Below are positions 4,144-17,792 of a stretch of DNA of 24,873 bases, in pieces. The stretch covers positions 1 through 24,873 of the forward strand of contig JWZX01002969.1 in assembly GCA_001275005.1 (NCBI GenBank). The letters run 5' to 3'. The translations under genes and the position numbers were made by a program. The notes under the pieces were generated by a model. It saw nothing but the letters and a program-made list of their open reading frames with translations, did no database searches and was not told the origin of the DNA. Numbering within the stretch: position 1 is the stretch's first letter; every line of letters begins with the position of its first letter. Origin of the DNA: Chrysochromulina tobinii (taxonomy: Eukaryota > Haptophyta > Prymnesiales > Chrysochromulinaceae).

Positions 4144-4809
4144 TTCTAAGTTCACACGACGCGGCGTTCGTGCAGCGCTTGCTTTCTAGGCCCCCGGACC
4201 CGAAGCTCCCGGTCCACCCTCGGTGCTCGGACGAGGGTGGAGGGACGTATGACGACGTAACGTAAACACGAGAAAAAGATTCGACCCCCGCATCACCTGA
4301 CACCGCGATCCGGTGATCCGAAGGATCAACATGGTTACCTTAGGTACATGCGTGGTGCGAGGTCGAGCAGAAAAGTTTGTCATTTGTCTCACCGGACCGT
4401 ACCTGACGTGCTGACGAGGCGGTCAACCATCGCGGGGCGGCATTGCGACTCCCCCCTGGTGATGCGAGGAAAGCAGAAGTGGCCGAGTGATGCTACTCCG
4501 CAAGTAAGTCACGCCTTATTTTACCCAAGGGGTAGGGTAGGGATTAATTTCTGGATTTGCACCTTTCCTCATACCCTGAACATTTCAAACTGAGTGCTTT
4601 CGAGCGGTCGCGGGTCTGGGTTCCGGGTCGGAAATGTGCATCACTTTCGTTCAATCGGTCAACACCCTCCACGCTCTATCTCTACGGGATCTGTGGCCGT
4701 GCGTCTGGCAGTAATGGCTAATTAACGAAACGTGCGATGCGCTCTTCATGCTCATTTCGGCGCGTCGGATACATGTACACATTCTCAAAACGGCTCCACC
4801 CACCTTCAT
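4144..4809. other. Intergenic between glucosidase and SAM/TPR gene
   Basis: This 666-base gap holds the 3' end of the glucosidase gene, including a perfect 9-bp hairpin at 4214-4240, and the promoter of the next gene. An AT-richer stretch runs from about 4510 to 4590. A TACATGTA palindrome sits at 4770-4777, about 33 bases before the next ATG. The small open frame at 4348-4593 has no recognisable sequence. Confidence 0.5.
4214..4240 (+). repeat. Perfect 9-bp hairpin in the glucosidase 3' flank
   Basis: CCACCCTCG at 4214-4222 pairs perfectly with CGAGGGTGG at 4232-4240 across a 9-base loop, 71 bases after the glucosidase stop codon. In a nuclear gene it would lie in the 3' UTR or just beyond it. 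A role in RNA 3'-end formation or stability is possible but unproven. Confidence 0.5.
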
Positions 4810-6939
4810 ATGGACCCCATGTCCTTGCCGAGTTCGCCAATGTCGCGCCCTCCTCCAGCGGCGTGGATGAGCGCAGCCCTGACGGGTGTGGGTGGCCTCG
4901 GCGGTGGCGATCTCGTGCGGCCCGCGTCCGCACCATCGCTCGCTCGACGACCGCCGTCGGCCGGAGTCGAGCAGCAAAAGGCGAGGCCGAAGCAGCATGC
5001 GTTCTCCATTCACATTCCGGGCGTTGTGCCCAGGAAAGGCAAAGGCTTCGCAACCTCCGTGTCGATGAGCAGCCTCACGAAGAGCGACTCCCTGATCAGC
5101 CTCGCGCTGGCCAACTCGCAGCTGCAGCCCAATGTCTCGCTGTACGATCCGGAGCCCGGCGTCGTGCGAGTCCGGGAGCCCACCGAGATGGCGAAGCTTC
5201 GCCAAAAGGGCACCGACGCGTGGCTGGCGCGCGACTTTTTCTCTTCGGCGTCGGCCTTTGGTGACTTGGCGAGCCTGCTGGCAGAGGAGAAGGGTCTGCC
5301 GCACGCGCAGGCGCTGCGGCTACGTGGAGCTGCACTGCTCCGCACCAAGCAGTACGACGAGGCGCTCGTGACGGCGCTCACATCGCTCGCGAGCATCGGG
5401 CAGCCCGAGGCGGATCCGAAGACGGACAAGGAGTTCTTCGAGCTGGTGGCGCTCGCGGCGATGGGGAGCGACTCGGCAGCCATGGTGAGCCCGGAGGCGC
5501 TTCCAGCTTACCAGCTGCATGGCGAGGCGTGCCTCGGGCTTGGCCAGCACCAGGCGGCTGCGCACTCGCTCGGGCGTGCGCTGCTCTTGGCCACCGTCGA
5601 CAAATCGCACGGGCCGGCCTCGCGGGCTGTCCAGTCGCTGCTGGCGCAATTCCTTGACGCGAGCGGTCGAGCTTCAGTCGCCACGATGCCGCTGCAGGTG
5701 TACGCGGTCGCTGCTGAGGGGTTGAAGCAGGCTGCGGCTGCGGGCACCGTCTCGGCGTCGATGCGCGCGCGACGGCTCGGGCAGTACACTCCGACACCTT
5801 GCTTCCGGCTCGTGCTGCGCCCTCGCTTCGCGCCGTGGCCGCTCGAGATTCATCTGGCGGAGCTGCCAAGGGTGATGAGCGAAGAGCAAGATGGCGTGCG
5901 TCTCTCCTTCTTCTGCGCGTTCGAGCAGATGCCGAGCGAGCCTCACACGTGCCTGTACGCGAACCGCTCGGACAAGCACGCGCTCGTGCTCGTGAGCATC
6001 CGGCTCGATGGGCAGCTCGAACTCGTCTCAAACTCGACTGAAGCCTGCTGGGAGCAAGCGACTGCTCTATTCGGCCACCCGCCGCAGCCACGCTCCTTGC
6101 ACGACTTTGATGTCATCTCGTCGGGCTGGGCCGCCTCCGGCGTGGCCGTGCATGCCTTCGGCGCGCTCGTGCGGACAAAGTGGAAGGAGTGGGACGAGGG
6201 GCGTGGGCGCGCGGCGAAGGCACGCAAGCAGAAGGAGCGAGTACAGCGCGAGCGCCAGGCGGAATTGCTCCGCTGGTTACAAGATCTCGACCTCGACGAG
6301 CTGCATCCACTGCTGGTGCGGGAGGGCGTCGACCTGACCACGCTGCAGTACATCGCCGAGGATGACCTGAGCCGGCTCGGGGTCACGCAGCTCGGGCAGC
6401 GGCGCAAGCTGCTCGCGGCGGTGAGGACACAGGAGCAGTACAAGCATCTCACCGAAAAGCTAGCTACCCTCGAGGCTGAGAGGATCACCCTGATGCAGGA
6501 GCACGCGCGGCAGGGCTCCGAGCTTGACCAACGGACGGCCGAGCTGAGCGCGGCTTGCGCGGACGTGGGGCGGCTGACCTCCGCGCTCACAACCGCAGAG
6601 GCGGAGCGCGAGGCGGCGAGACGGGAGCAGCAGGGCACTGCGGCAGAGCTCGCGACCTCGAGCGAGAAAGTCACCGCCCTGCAGGCGAAATCGGACGCGT
6701 TCGCTGCGGACATCGAGGTGCTGCTCGAGCAGCTGCATGCATCCTCAGCCGGCCAGAGGAGGACCTTGCAAGAGATCCGCACGAGCATAGACGTCGAGAC
6801 GTTCAACCTCAAGGAGGCTGTGCGCAGAGGCCCGAATCTCATCCATCGCCCGATGCCTAAACGCCCCAGTGTCGCTCACGCAATGGAAGCGGGCGACTCC
6901 ATCCGCGGCACATCCGCGTCACAGGCTCGGCAGGCTTGA
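4810..6939 (+). CDS. TPR-like / SAM domain / coiled-coil scaffold protein
   Basis: The product is 709 residues from the first in-frame ATG at 4810; the frame opens at a GTG at 4732, which I do not take as a start. Residues 1-125 are low complexity, rich in Ser/Pro (RPASAPSLARRPPSAG). Residues 125-310 are helical and TPR-like: KLRQKGTDAWLARDFF, then AQALRLRGAALLRTKQYDEA, then a further pair at about 230-260 (YQLHGEACLGLGQHQAAAHS). Residues 325-455 form an unassigned globular region. A SAM domain lies at about 484-541 (LLRWLQDLDLDELHPLL, then EDDLSRLGV, then GQRRKLLAAV). A long coiled coil follows at about 541-660, then a basic tail. TPR and SAM modules bind proteins and SAM domains often polymerise, so a scaffold role is inferred. 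No catalytic motif was seen and no ortholog was recognised. Confidence 0.8.
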   Translation: MDPMSLPSSPMSRPPPAAWMSAALTGVGGLGGGDLVRPASAPSLARRPPSAGVEQQKARPKQHAFSIHIPGVVPRKGKGFATSVSMSSLTKSDSLISLALANSQLQPNVSLYDPEPGVVRVREPTEMAKLRQKGTDAWLARDFFSSASAFGDLASLLAEEKGLPHAQALRLRGAALLRTKQYDEALVTALTSLASIGQPEADPKTDKEFFELVALAAMGSDSAAMVSPEALPAYQLHGEACLGLGQHQAAAHSLGRALLLATVDKSHGPASRAVQSLLAQFLDASGRASVATMPLQVYAVAAEGLKQAAAAGTVSASMRARRLGQYTPTPCFRLVLRPRFAPWPLEIHLAELPRVMSEEQDGVRLSFFCAFEQMPSEPHTCLYANRSDKHALVLVSIRLDGQLELVSNSTEACWEQATALFGHPPQPRSLHDFDVISSGWAASGVAVHAFGALVRTKWKEWDEGRGRAAKARKQKERVQRERQAELLRWLQDLDLDELHPLLVREGVDLTTLQYIAEDDLSRLGVTQLGQRRKLLAAVRTQEQYKHLTEKLATLEAERITLMQEHARQGSELDQRTAELSAACADVGRLTSALTTAEAEREAARREQQGTAAELATSSEKVTALQAKSDAFAADIEVLLEQLHASSAGQRRTLQEIRTSIDVETFNLKEAVRRGPNLIHRPMPKRPSVAHAMEAGDSIRGTSASQARQA

Positions 6940-7922: not shown

Positions 7923-8123
7923 TTCGTCTGGAGGTGTCCTGCGGAAGGCCTGTGGAAAGTTCCTGTGGAAAGTTCCTGACGAATGAGAAATGAACGGGTC
8001 CGACTTTAGAAGACCAGTATGACCAGTGAGTGGTCCCCGTCTCCTTCGGAGATATATAACATGGACAAGTACAAGTTAGGAGGATTCCACGAATTTTCGC
8101 CAGGTCAGGGTCGTCAGGAAGAA
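7923..8123. promoter_or_regulatory. Divergent promoter, small membrane protein / SDHAF2
   Basis: About 200 bases separate the two start codons. TATATAA at 8053-8059 faces SDHAF2 and is the best TATA box in the window. Initiation about 30 bases downstream falls after the in-frame ATGs at 8019 and 8061, leaving 8124 as first ATG. A 13-bp unit is tandemly repeated at 7949-7978, on the side nearest the small membrane-protein gene. Confidence 0.55.
7949..7978. repeat. 13-bp tandem repeat (2.3 copies)
   Basis: CCTGTGGAAAGTT occurs perfectly twice in tandem (7949-7961 and 7962-7974), followed by CCTG of a third copy. It lies in the divergent promoter, 27-56 bases upstream of the minus-strand ATG at 7922. 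It may be a tandem binding site or a simple replication slip. Confidence 0.75.
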
Positions 8124-10052: not shown

Positions 10053-10466
10053 GAGGCGCCGAGTAGGCATCTGTCCTAAAGCTGTCCCGCAGTGCACGCC
10101 AGTGGAGTTATGCCATAAGCGTTATGCTAGCGGGGAGCCCCAATTCAATTCAATACCATTCGGTTCGGGTGTGAGTGGGCTCGCTGCAGCCACACCCTGA
10201 GTCGCTCTAACTCAGTAACTCCATGTAACTCTACTGCATTGCTCTACTGCACAGCTCCTGCCAAACCACCCTATGAATTTTTTGGTTCCCCATAGTGTTT
10301 TGCCCCATGAAAACCCTCACTGTCGTGCGTGTTGCCGAGATGGCATTTACATGGCATTTAAAGCGTGAACGTGAATGTGAAACCCAAACATCAGGAAGTC
10401 TCAACGGCAATTGTGAGCCTCTCCGTCAACCGCGCCGTGTCGCTCCCGGCTGCCCGCTTCGCCGCC
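10053..10466. other. Intergenic, promoter side of DNAAF6
   Basis: This 414-base gap contains a cluster of short imperfect repeats at 10215-10251 (GTAACTC twice and CTCTACTGCA twice) and a TTTAAA at 10357-10362 that could act as a TATA-like element about 110 bases before the next ATG. No gene was recognised. Confidence 0.4.
10215..10251. repeat. Short direct repeats upstream of DNAAF6
   Basis: CTCTACTGCA occurs at 10229-10238 and 10242-10251 with a 13-base period, preceded by two GTAACTC copies. The array is small and may be slippage rather than a regulatory element. Confidence 0.45.
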
Positions 10467-11069
10467 ATGGGCGACTACCAAGCATGGGAGGCGCTCGACG
10501 CCATGATGAACAAACCCGCTGAGCCGCCTGCCACCGCACCCAAATCTTCGTATGGCCGTGATGCCCCGGTCACCGTCACCGGCCCGTCGCCAGGCATGAT
10601 AGGGCCGGCAAAGAAGGCGGCGCCGAAAAAGGCGGCGAAGAAGGCGGATCCGAACGAAATCTGGGCAGAGGCGGACGTGAAAGACGCTGGAGACATCGAT
10701 GACATCGACGATGGCCGCGCCTGCCCGGATTATGAGATCGTCTTCAAGCAAAACGTGACACCGCAGGACTTCTTCCTCGGCATAGACCCGCTGCGCCACG
10801 CAGGAATCTCCTGCAGCGACGAGCTCGTGCTCAAGGTCACGCTGCCCGGCACAAAGCTCGCGGATATTGACCTCGACGTGCGGCCCACCTTCGTGCGCAT
10901 CGGCGCGCCCAAGTATAAGCTCAAGGCACAGCTGGGCGAGAAGGTCAACGAGACCAAGGGCAACGCGAAGTGGGATGCGAGCAAATCCTTGCTGACCGTT
11001 ACGCTGCCCATCATCCACGACCTCGATAGCAAGATGACCACCACGAGCCAGAGCAACGAGATCGATTGA
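10467..11069 (+). CDS. DNAAF6: Dynein axonemal assembly factor 6 (PIH1D3 family)
   Basis: The ATG at 10467 sits in a perfect GCCGCCATGG context and gives 200 residues, close to the human protein (214). The frame opens upstream only at a GTG at 10365. The N-terminus is a flexible Ala/Lys-rich stretch (AKKAAPKKAAKKADPNEIW). It leads into a conserved acidic box and PDYEIVFKQNVTPQDFFLG, which closely matches the PIH1D3 core, and then a CS-like fold (DELVLKVTLPGTKLADIDLD, then KWDASKSLLTVTLPI). PIH proteins work with HSP90/R2TP in the cytoplasm to pre-assemble axonemal dynein arms. This gene therefore shows that the organism builds motile flagella. It is tail-to-tail with the NEK-IFT57 gene, another ciliary gene, 211 bases away. 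Confidence 0.9.
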   Translation: MGDYQAWEALDAMMNKPAEPPATAPKSSYGRDAPVTVTGPSPGMIGPAKKAAPKKAAKKADPNEIWAEADVKDAGDIDDIDDGRACPDYEIVFKQNVTPQDFFLGIDPLRHAGISCSDELVLKVTLPGTKLADIDLDVRPTFVRIGAPKYKLKAQLGEKVNETKGNAKWDASKSLLTVTLPIIHDLDSKMTTTSQSNEID

Positions 11070-11280
11070 GTGAACGTCTGTCGTGCTGACTCGCGACCCG
11101 GAGCGGGCGCGGTGTGACATCGAGGTAGTCAGAAAACATGTATCTTTAGGGCTGCTCCCGTCGATTGGCGGTGATACTGTATACAGGTGCAGATGTGCAC
11201 GCGCCGCGATAAATCAACGGTGTTCTCCGCCACCGTCGTTGTCGAGCGTGTCCAGGTCCAACACGGCTCGCGTGGCGGCC

Positions 11281-13600
11281 TCATCGCCCGCAGCCGCAGC
11301 TCTCCTGACACCCTCGCGCGCTTCGCGTCCGCGCAGCCCGCTCCTCGGCCCTGCGCCTGGTCGCGAGAGTCTTGCTGGCCATGGCCTCGCGCACCACGAG
11401 CGCTTTGACCTCTAGCCTAAGCGCCCGCAGCGCTGCGCGAATCTGATCGAGTGGCTGGCTTCCCGAGAGCTCGACACCCCGCCCGGCCGCCTGCGCCTTG
11501 GTCCTGCTGATCTCGTCCTCAAGGTTCATGAGCTCGCTCGAGAGCGCGTCGACACGCTGCTGCTTATTCGCGACCGCCTCGCTCGCGGCGTCACGCGTCG
11601 CTGCGGCTGCGTCGGCCTCCGCCTGCAGCGGTGCGACCGCGGCGACTCGCCCCGCATGCTGGCTACCAATCCGCTCGAGTGGCGCCTCGATGAAGGGCGC
11701 CTCGCGCGCAAAGGGAGGCGCGTGCTGCTGCGCGAGGGCTAGCCGGTGGCGCCACGCGAGCTTTTGCCAGCTCACCTGTAGCGTGAGCTGGCTGGCTAGC
11801 CTCTCGCTCTCTTCGGCCCAGGCACTCGCTGAAATCTTCGGAGGCCGGAGCGGCCGCCGCCGCCGGTAGCGGACCGTCGGCCGCGCGCGCCGAGCCCGCA
11901 CCGCCGACGTCGTCGACGTCGTCGACGCCGTCCTCGTCGTCAGCGGCCGCGTCGTCCTCGTCGCCTTCCTCGTCGGCCTTGGGCGGAGGGCCGTGGCGTG
12001 CGCGTTCGCGGCTCCTCCCCTGCTGCTGTAGATGTTGGCCATCATCCTCACGCCGCTCCGAGGGCTCCGCGCGCTTCGCTAGAGCGCGCGGGATCGCCTC
12101 GTCGGCGTCCCCCTCGAGCTCCTCCACATCTCCCTCGTCCTCGAGAGAGTGCCCATGCTGCGGTGTGGCCCAAACGAAGCCCGCCTTAGTGAGTGCGGCG
12201 TCGGTGAGCGCATCGAGCATCGCGCACACCTCCGCACCGCGCGCCGCGCGCAGCCGGTGCGGCGGCATCGCGCCCAGCGAGCCCAGCGGCGCGGGGGCCT
12301 TGCTCAGCGTGTGCAGCAGCGCGGCGCACGCGGCGCCGGCGTCGGCGTCGTAGGTGGCTGAGCTCGCTGTGGGAACGAGCTTCCACAGCTCGTGCCCAGG
12401 CGCAACTGACACCTGCAGCAGCCAGCACGTGAGCGTGTACAAGTACTCGAGCTGCGCTGCCTCCGCCGCCTCGACGGGTGCGCCTGTAAAGTACGCACAG
12501 GGCAGCGGCGGCAGGCTGCGCGCCCGGAGCAGCTGCCTCTCATAGTCGAGAAGCTTGAGTTTGTCGCCGACGGCCTCCATCACGATCAGGCAGTCCGAGA
12601 TAGCCATCGCCGCCGCCGCCACGCCATTGCCGCCACTGCCGGCAGCGGCGGCGGCGGCGCTGGCCGCCGCTCCGTTGGCTCCTGCGCCGTTCTGGCGTTC
12701 CAGCTCGTTCAGGGCCTTCTTGGCGAACTCGAGGGTTGCGTGGATGTCCAGGCGGCGCGTCGGGTCGAGCTGGATCATGTGCTGCACCAGCGACTGCAGC
12801 GCTGGGGAGTAGTGCGCAGGCAGCGCCTCATACTTGCCCACGGAGATCTTCTTGAACAGAGTGTACAGGTTATCGCCCTCTGCTTTGAAGGGCGAGCGTA
12901 GCGTTGCGAGCTCGTAGAGCAGGCAGCCGAGCGACCAGACATCGCTCTTCCACTCGTAGCCGCGCCCATCGAGCACCTCGGGGCTCATGTACAGCGGCGT
13001 GCCTACCTTGGAGAGCGCCTCGTACGTCTGCGACGAGAAGGCGCGCCCCAGCCCGAGGTCGCCCAGCTTCACTGACCCGTTGGATGCGAGGAAGATGTTG
13101 GCTGGCTTGATGTCACGGTGCATGATCCGCGCCTCGTGCATGTGCCGGATGCCGTCGCACACCTGGACAAAGTAGCGCCATACCTGAACCTCCTGCAGCG
13201 ATGTCTTTGACTCGTTGGCGCGGCGCAGCAGCCGACGCAGGTCGCCGTGCTCCGCCCACTCGAAGACAATGTAAAGCTCGCTATTGTCGATGAATGAGTC
13301 AATGTACTGGATGATGCAGGGGTGCGGCTTGAGCGTCTTGAGCAGGTCGACTTCCTTGAGGCAGCGATCGCGCGCCTTGGCATCGAGCATGTCAAAGATC
13401 TGCACCTTTTTCAGTGCGACGCGACGTTCATCCGAGCGCCGCACAGCGCGGTGTACGGTGCTGAAGTGCCCTCGGCCGATGGCCTTCTCGATCACATAAT
13501 CGGCCAGCGAGCCGCTCGATGCGGCCGAAATACCGGCCGTCGCTGCGGCTAGGCTGCTTTCGACGGTTGCAGCAGCCGAGACCGGCTCCGTGAGGGCCAT
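11281..13600 (-). CDS. NEK6/7-type kinase fused to intraflagellar transport protein IFT57
   Basis: Exon 1 is 13600..11902 and exon 2 is 11828..11281, giving 748 residues. Residues ~33-295 are a complete NEK6/NEK7-like kinase: glycine loop GRGHFSTV, catalytic Lys K64 in VALKK, helix-C E83, HRD at 161-163, the NEK6/7-typical DLG (181-183) in GDLGLGRAFSS, and VGTPLYMSPE. VALKKVQIFD and AKARDRCLKEVDLLK nearly copy NEK7. A ~35-residue Ala/Gly linker follows in the same frame. Residues ~335-480 match the IFT57 N-terminal CH-like domain (MEAVGDKLKLLDYE, YLYTLTCWLL, EVCAMLDALTDAAL, KAGFVWATP). An acidic linker comes next. After the intron lies the IFT57 coiled coil (AWAEESERLASQL, LEDEISRTKAQAAGRG, LDQIRAALRALRLEV). 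IFT57 is an IFT-B subunit, so the kinase would be built into the IFT train. The ATG at 13600 is preceded in frame only by a TTG. Confidence 0.85.
11829..11901 (-). other. Intron in the NEK-IFT57 gene, 73 bp, GT-AG
   Basis: On the minus strand the donor is GGCG|GTGCGG and the acceptor is GATTTCAG|CGAGTG, phase 1. The donor resembles that of SDHAF2 intron 1. Removal switches from the kinase/CH frame to the frame that encodes the IFT57 coiled coil. A weaker alternative donor at 11874 gives a 46-bp intron with the same frame change. Some frame change here is required, because the first frame turns into a non-conserved sequence and stops at 11663. Confidence 0.7.
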
Positions 13601-16080: not shown

Positions 16081-16115
16081 GTAGTCGGTAGACAAGAGAG
16101 TCACGGTCACGAGAG

Positions 16116-17792
16116 ATGAACGAGAATACGGAGGGTGGGCCACCCAGAGCGATTGCATGGGCTTTGCGCGAGCGATGTTTCGAGAGACAGTGTTTGCATG
16201 CATTCCACAAAGACCAATCCCAGATGAAACGAAGCCATGCGAAGCGAAGACGTTTCGGAAGCCCCGCGACCCGGACGCCTTGCGATTTGCTCCGTGCGGC
16301 GGCGTCTGTGTGCATGTCGGCCCTTCCAATGCGCCCGACTGGAACCCGACCCTTATCGGCACCCCTGATGCTCGCTGCGAGGCAGCGCGAGGCCGAACTT
16401 TCCACCGCGGCTGCATTGCACAACCACTTGACGAACCGCCATGACCTTGACAGTATGCTCTCGTGGCGCTCCATCCCTCCCACACATGAGTCAGCGGTGC
16501 TCGCACAGCTGAGCATGAGGCGCTCCGACAGCCGCGACTTAGCGCTCGCAGCGATGTGCCATCGCGGGGAAGCTCGGATGGAGGCCCGGATGGAGCAGAT
16601 GGAGACCAAGGCCATGAAAATGACACGAACATTGTGCGCCTCCTCACTCTTGCAGTTGCACGAGCAGCAGGCTGCATCTCCGAGTGTCTATCCCACGCGA
16701 GCAGATAACGAGAGAATGGCCGCGGCCCATCGCCAGCTGCACGCGCTCCGGTACGTTGATCGGCAGGCCGTCGAGCAGGCGGCGCTGCCGCTGGGCTCCA
16801 CTCGTCAACTCACTCGTCCCGCATCTGCGGCTGCACCACCCAGAGCAGGGGCGCCAGTCAAGGCGGCCGAGAAGGCGGCCGGAGCGTCCGCGCTCGCACC
16901 GGCCGTGTACGGCATGAGCCGCTCGGAGAGCGCCATGTTCGTCAAAAGCGCGCAGCTCAGCCGCACGAGCCTTTCACGCGACGAAACCCGCAGATCGCTC
17001 CAGATCTACCAGCGCCCTGTTCCGCGGCGGCCGCGCACACCGCCACAGGAGCACCGGTCGATCAAAGCTATCATGTTCCCGACGCAACTCGCCGACGGAC
17101 CGTACCGCTCCCAGGCGCCGCTACCGCACGAGGAGAGCTACAAGGAGTTCGTGCTTCATCGTGATTCTCTCGTCAGCCTTCGACGAGCCAAGACCGCCGC
17201 CACGTTGGCCACGTTGGCGCCGCCGCCGCCCTTGCGCAAGAGGGCGCCCAAGATGGAGGAGCGCTCGTTGGCCCTGGCGTTCGACATGAAAGCAAACATG
17301 AGCGAGGTCCAGGTTACGACCGCCGCTGCGCACCTCGCGCCACCGGCGGCTGCGCCCCCGCCTCCGGCCAACAAGCCCATCGACCGCTCTGCGCTCAAGA
17401 AGAACAGCGCGATGGTGAGATCGGCTGTTGAGGGTCTCAACTCGCGCTTCTCGAACATGATGAAGGCCTTCCAGTACGTGGACCTCGATCGCTCGGGCAC
17501 GCTCAATAAAAAGGAGCTGGCACGCGCGCTCGATTTGTGGAATATCCCGATAGATAACGCCAAGCTCGACGAGCTCATCGCCGCGTGTGACGACGACGGC
17601 AACGGTGAGGTCAACTACAAAGAGTTTGTCGACGCACTCGCGCGTGACACGGTGGCACCAGCGGCCATGGGCAAGAGGGACATGCAGGCCAAGGAGGCGA
17701 TGGGTCAGGACGACGTTGAGGTCCTGTCGGAGCACATCAAGAGGCGGCCAAAGAAGAATGAGCGCTTCTCGCTCAATGCGGAAGTGCTTTAG
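16116..17792 (+). CDS. EF-hand calcium-binding protein with long disordered N-terminus
   Basis: The protein has 558 residues from the ATG at 16116. The first 66 residues are unusual in composition, and the ATG at 16314 is an alternative start (492 residues). Most of the length is Ala/Arg/Pro-rich and probably disordered, with short conserved-looking peptides such as TGTRPLSAPL and HRSIKAIMFP. One C-terminal EF-hand pair is complete. Loop 1 is DLDRSGTLNKKE (456-467) and loop 2 is DDDGNGEVNYKE (492-503), each with calcium-ligand positions 1, 3, 5 and 12 intact. The last residues are basic (HIKRRPKKNERFSLNAEVL). Calcium-dependent structural change is expected. The layout is reminiscent of axonemal EF-hand proteins, and two ciliary genes lie nearby, but no ortholog was recognised, so a flagellar role is only a guess. 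Confidence 0.8.
   Translation: MNENTEGGPPRAIAWALRERCFERQCLHAFHKDQSQMKRSHAKRRRFGSPATRTPCDLLRAAASVCMSALPMRPTGTRPLSAPLMLAARQREAELSTAAALHNHLTNRHDLDSMLSWRSIPPTHESAVLAQLSMRRSDSRDLALAAMCHRGEARMEARMEQMETKAMKMTRTLCASSLLQLHEQQAASPSVYPTRADNERMAAAHRQLHALRYVDRQAVEQAALPLGSTRQLTRPASAAAPPRAGAPVKAAEKAAGASALAPAVYGMSRSESAMFVKSAQLSRTSLSRDETRRSLQIYQRPVPRRPRTPPQEHRSIKAIMFPTQLADGPYRSQAPLPHEESYKEFVLHRDSLVSLRRAKTAATLATLAPPPPLRKRAPKMEERSLALAFDMKANMSEVQVTTAAAHLAPPAAAPPPPANKPIDRSALKKNSAMVRSAVEGLNSRFSNMMKAFQYVDLDRSGTLNKKELARALDLWNIPIDNAKLDELIAACDDDGNGEVNYKEFVDALARDTVAPAAMGKRDMQAKEAMGQDDVEVLSEHIKRRPKKNERFSLNAEVL

Follow-up and report, generated by a model that had tools for sequence, protein, structure and literature searches.

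Closest described systems

NEK6 and NEK7 consist of almost nothing but a kinase domain, with no long C-terminal extension. Excerpts of PMC4632185 describe activation of NEK7 by NEK9-induced dimerisation. Ordinary IFT57, a subunit of IFT-B2 in intraflagellar transport (IFT), has a CH domain that reaches IFT172 via a long flexible linker and a coiled coil that pairs with IFT38, as set out in excerpts of PMC10191852 and PMC6224603. The stretch analysed here (24,873 nucleotides of Chrysochromulina tobinii, contig JWZX01002969.1; hereafter the window) contains a minus-strand gene, at 11214–13600, in which a NEK6/7-type kinase, a linker and an IFT57-like protein follow one another, with two one-base frame offsets. 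Its outline was drawn from open reading frames, Pfam matches and the proteins of relatives. The gene pairs a kinase with a diverged paralogue of an IFT protein already known, and is not a new type of system.

Likeness to NEK6 and NEK7 is clear in the kinase domain, whose identity to human NEK7 reaches 58% (in P0008, one of the proteins returned by our searches) and which keeps the catalytic motifs together with the counterparts of Ser195 and Tyr97. The domain does not stand alone, however, as an IFT57-like part of about 460 residues (measured in P0002) follows it. The fusion thus carries a NEK6/7-type domain without being a typical NEK6/7. From IFT57 (PF10498; chains 8bd7_M and 8ruy_M) it differs in its N-terminal kinase, in forming a separate clade, in an identity of 24–27% to the ordinary IFT57 of its own species, and in coexisting with that protein.

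Kinase and IFT57-like protein in one gene

On the minus strand, one frame is free of stops from 13726 to 11663 (687 codons), with the start ATG at 13600–13598, and encodes in succession the kinase, an Ala/Gly linker and the CH domain of IFT57. Pfam assigned 213 bits to Pkinase in the window (E 6e-63) and 75.9 bits to IFT57, over profile positions 1–177. The IFT57 half does not stay in a single frame. Its coiled-coil half (11347–11850) lies in a second frame, where 11850–11368 corresponds to positions 188–359 of PF10498 (46 bits in the genome search, 50.5 bits by Pfam on the window), and the C-terminal tail (11217–11336), which matches the tails of P0001–P0003, lies in a third frame closing at the TGA at 11216–11214. 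A preliminary description of this DNA had proposed a gene running from 13600 to 11281 with no stop between its halves. The gene runs instead from 13600 to 11214, and the absence of stops holds for the junction of kinase, linker and CH domain while the IFT57 half is broken by the two offsets.

The offsets map to 11869–11884 and 11332–11346 by comparison with P0001, P0002 and P0003, all of which read through both stretches. Over the query region, P0001 and P0002 share 95–96% identity with the window; P0003 is 99% identical over 71% of that region. Because such near-identical proteins read through, and because the published C. tobinii draft is described in the available part of PMC4580454 as a 454 plus Illumina assembly, the offsets are probably assembly errors; a real mutation of the strain retains some probability as the alternative explanation. 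An intron spanning the frame change, suggested by an acceptor-like CAG before the coiled coil, was rejected, as P0001–P0003 hold the residues that the window encodes in its two frames on either side.

The deposited record for this locus, P0009 (C. tobinii 'protein kinase 6', 499 amino acids), omits the linker and the start of the CH domain, as well as a second segment that begins at the end of the CH domain, includes the acidic linker and extends into the coiled coil. Relatives have all of these parts, and the P0009 gene model appears to be mis-spliced.

Kinase and IFT57 were found in the same order in at least 11 proteins from other contigs besides P0009. The first search returned 11 proteins: P0009, P0003 (an IFT57-only protein truncated at its start), and nine with two domains (P0001, P0002, P0004–P0008, P0010 and P0011). 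The second returned 13, adding two-domain P0012 and P0015 and IFT57-only P0013 and P0014. These counts are lower bounds, as each search scored only the 7992–7996 candidates sharing most words, and the second one missed P0007 and also P0010, even though P0010's own half was in the query. P0011 (SGPRY_011199) comes from a metagenome-assembled genome (MAG) of Prymnesium sp.; apart from this protein and that of C. tobinii, the fusion proteins are, judging by their similarity, presumably of haptophyte origin. P0015 is very distant, with a partial NEK7-like kinase and an IFT57 part, and hints that the kinase–IFT57 arrangement is old. No relative was confirmed in viral contigs or prokaryote genomes. 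The central claim of the preliminary description, that one gene encodes both a NEK6/7-class kinase and a protein of the IFT57 type, is borne out, and the combination recurs in related sequences.

The linker (12581–12730) is rich in Ala and Gly and poorly conserved, with a mean pairwise identity of 37.4% among ten proteins. Measured from a fixed mark on one domain to a fixed mark on the other, the distance is 52–94 residues in ten proteins and 270 in P0015. At this base composition, about 2.8% of codons are expected to be stops; long linkers that remain open, and whose lengths differ by whole codons from one diverged protein to another, are therefore not easily accounted for unless a single protein is translated. 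On the evidence of these predicted proteins, we regard the kinase–IFT57 fusion as real.

A second start in the linker had also been considered in the preliminary description, which put an ATG at 12603. The in-linker ATG is at 12607–12605, and Met occupies that position in only three of ten proteins (P0001, P0002, P0004–P0008 and P0010–P0012), so that a conserved internal start was rejected. The next Met (VMEAV, in the first CH helix) is conserved in the fusions and equally in ordinary IFT57 (88% of 36 rows); P0014 starts there.

The kinase half

The kinase domain (residues 35–290; 12731–13498) is complete and retains its catalytic residues, in agreement with what had been noticed from the DNA alone. 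Among solved structures the best match was human NEK7 (E ~3e-87), followed by NEK1 (4e-54) and NEK2 (2e-46); the nearest relative is thus NEK7 rather than another NEK or another kinase. The catalytic residues checked and the counterparts of NEK7 Tyr97 (autoinhibitory) and Ser195 (activation loop) were invariant in 10/10 fusion proteins, with one exception: P0011 has no HRD His, and its predicted sequence is missing 21 residues at that point. In a tree made with nine of the 11 two-domain proteins (without P0001 and P0015), 14 of a further 134 kinase matches listed, and human NEK7, the nine fusion kinases grouped with human NEK7 and with C659 (support 98/98). C659 is a separate NEK6/7-type kinase of the C. 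tobinii genome, itself closest to NEK7. Among ten fusion proteins, mean pairwise identity fell from 85.6% (kinase) to 65.7% (CH domain) and 45.7% (coiled coil), the linker being lowest; the catalytic part, with the highest identity, is accordingly the most constrained.

The IFT57-like half

The N-terminal CH domain (12161–12580) is of the IFT57 kind, and IFT57 is the best match for both the CH domain and the coiled coil. P0002, P0007, P0010, P0011 and P0012 match the full-length IFT57 profile above the cut-off, from position 1 to 357–360 of 360, while the window matches it only across two frames. Between the two domains runs an acidic linker (11885–12160) that is probably disordered: in P0002, 33% of its residues are Asp or Glu, and the predicted structure has low confidence (pLDDT 28–35) across residues 481–580.

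The IFT57 halves of the ten better-placed fusions form one clade (100/100) that lies outside the ordinary IFT57s of haptophytes. With P0015 included, the fusions occupy one side of a branch (96/93), and P0015 has a branch length of 2.62. When P0015, P0094 and P0097, all on long branches, were removed, the fusion clade joined the tree between the ordinary IFT57s of haptophytes and the remaining ordinary IFT57s, though support was weak (84/61, 87/65). These trees took 36 and 34, respectively, of the 94 proteins listed in the search with ordinary IFT57, hand-picked for spread, P0076 and P0080 being partial. With such long branches, the trees do not fix the age of the IFT57 duplication.

An ordinary IFT57 in the same genome

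C. tobinii has a separate, intact ordinary IFT57 (G000:C2253:73528-74568, minus strand) in a single frame of 474 codons (L001:1393-2817). It scored 330 bits with the IFT57 profile, compared with 78 and 46 bits for the two pieces in the window; the profile also gave scores in three of 14 control genomes (archaea), none over the cut-off. This ordinary protein matches solved IFT57 chains at 6e-61. Its identity to P0002 is 24% in the coiled coil and 27% in the CH domain, and its identity to P0011 is 25%. The Prymnesium MAG likewise holds both P0011 and an ordinary IFT57 (P0076, SGPRY_014775, partial), and none of the 94 proteins among the matches listed for ordinary IFT57 (lengths ~244–777 amino acids) has a kinase domain. 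One-to-one orthology between the fusion and ordinary IFT57 is not found, given the separate gene and the fully supported fusion clade. An 'IFT57, alternative version' of Emiliania huxleyi is listed in the accessible part of PMC2784329.

The genome thus has a separate gene of each kind, an IFT57 and a NEK6/7-type kinase, and the fusion joins a paralogue of each. It looks like an extra, kinase-bearing version rather than a replacement of ordinary IFT57. The preliminary description had named, as an outcome that would count against it, a separate complete IFT57 alongside an unexpressed fusion: the first part of this holds, the separate gene being present.

Proposed role and alternative explanations

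Because the fusion keeps the layout of ordinary IFT57, the simplest reading is that an IFT57-like address delivers the kinase to some of the trains, or else to a related site on microtubules. With moderate confidence, we propose a single polypeptide made of an active NEK6/7-subfamily kinase, a flexible linker and a diverged second IFT57 that would tether the kinase to such a site or to a minor share of the IFT-B assemblies. The IFT57-like half would be the address and the kinase the payload. The most likely partner of the coiled coil would be a protein of the IFT38 type, while the CH domain would most likely dock on a WD-repeat protein such as IFT172. Once loaded onto a minority of IFT-B assemblies, or onto a ciliary, basal-body or haptonemal microtubule structure, the kinase might phosphorylate nearby train, tubulin or cargo proteins, and crowding on trains could help to activate it, much as NEK9-induced dimerisation does for NEK7. 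A more elaborate proposal, which we consider unlikely, is that haptophytes have two kinds of IFT-B, the second with the NEK6/7–IFT57 protein in place of IFT57, so that a subset of trains (for example, those of the haptonema or of one flagellum) would have a built-in kinase.

Several observations weigh against the proposed tether. The place of the IFT57-like half in IFT-B is one that we infer, because its identity to ordinary IFT57 is so low and because several near-invariant residues are missing: D132 is replaced in 11/11 fusions, P134 in 10/11, and I407 and G408 in 10/10, and in the comparison with ordinary IFT57, 10 of 28 CH columns and 22 of 39 coiled-coil columns of the fusions fall under the 80% mark. 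A Pfam search of the C. tobinii genome detected neither IFT38 nor IFT20; the control genomes were silent too, which makes this result uninformative. The assembly searched, G000 (53.2 Mb, 2253 contigs), compares with 59 Mb and 3472 contigs for the published draft (accessible part of PMC4580454), so that absences from it mean little, and as the only haptophyte genome searched it implies no absence in other haptophytes. The window copy carries its two offsets, and two-domain matches must be in frame because of the way the search is built, so that frame alone is no independent test. Three IFT57-only pieces were returned as well: P0003, P0013 (on a 1.3-kb contig) and P0014 (on a 15-kb contig). Lastly, the fusion is known here from genes and predicted proteins: none of P0001–P0015 is listed from MMETSP transcriptomes, while P0018, P0054 and P0059, ordinary IFT57s of the haptophyte clade, are. 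This last point is weak, with some 8000 candidates scored per search.

The replaced residues suggest that canonical contacts may be lost, which leaves room for a view in which the IFT57-like half no longer serves IFT at all. It would then bring the kinase to another microtubule structure (the mitotic spindle, the basal body or the haptonema), a role like that of the related CH domains in Ndc80 and augmin. We hold this to be possible though tentative, as IFT57 still scores best for each half and the acidic stretch that separates the CH domain from the coiled coil has been retained. Much less can be said for the fusion as the working IFT57 of these algae, the view of the preliminary description, in which every IFT-B complex would bear a kinase at fixed stoichiometry. 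A complete IFT57 architecture speaks in its favor, but a kinase on every train does not follow when the same genome has an ordinary IFT57, itself intact, that scores far higher for the family; the Prymnesium MAG with both genes and the absence of kinase domains among the ordinary IFT57 matches listed point the same way, and make the idea highly improbable. The further suggestion of the preliminary description, that kinases of the NEK6/7 class act on IFT57 partners in other organisms, is speculative. Equally hard to sustain is the explanation that annotation or assembly has merged two adjacent genes, or that the gene is a decaying pseudogene. The two offsets, the odd junctions of the P0009 model and the IFT57-only pieces would fit it; however, single predicted proteins with both halves come from other contigs, two of them 95–96% identical to the window and collinear across the junction, the kinase is strongly conserved, and the linker has no conserved second start.

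In the titles and abstract starts obtained by open-access full-text searching, which leaves subscription papers and preprints outside its scope, no NEK–IFT57 fusion was described, in line with the preliminary description. The fusion is a recurrent natural link between a NIMA-family kinase and an IFT-type protein, and offers a way to learn which NEKs act on ciliary transport and what their targets are. It also shows that IFT57 has duplicated and diverged in a lineage with an extra microtubule organelle, the haptonema; we know of no identified haptonema assembly genes, although no dedicated search for them was made.

Neighboring genes

Tail to tail with the fusion gene, a plus-strand gene at 10362–11066 encodes a PIH1 CS-like domain (PF18201, E 8e-11), for which no solved relatives were found. 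Domains of this kind occur in dynein-arm assembly factors, and the gene may be a second ciliary gene beside the fusion. Farther away on the plus strand are a 566-codon frame at 16092–17789, with an EF-hand pair near its C-terminus, and a 737-codon frame at 4726–6936 with a SAM domain.
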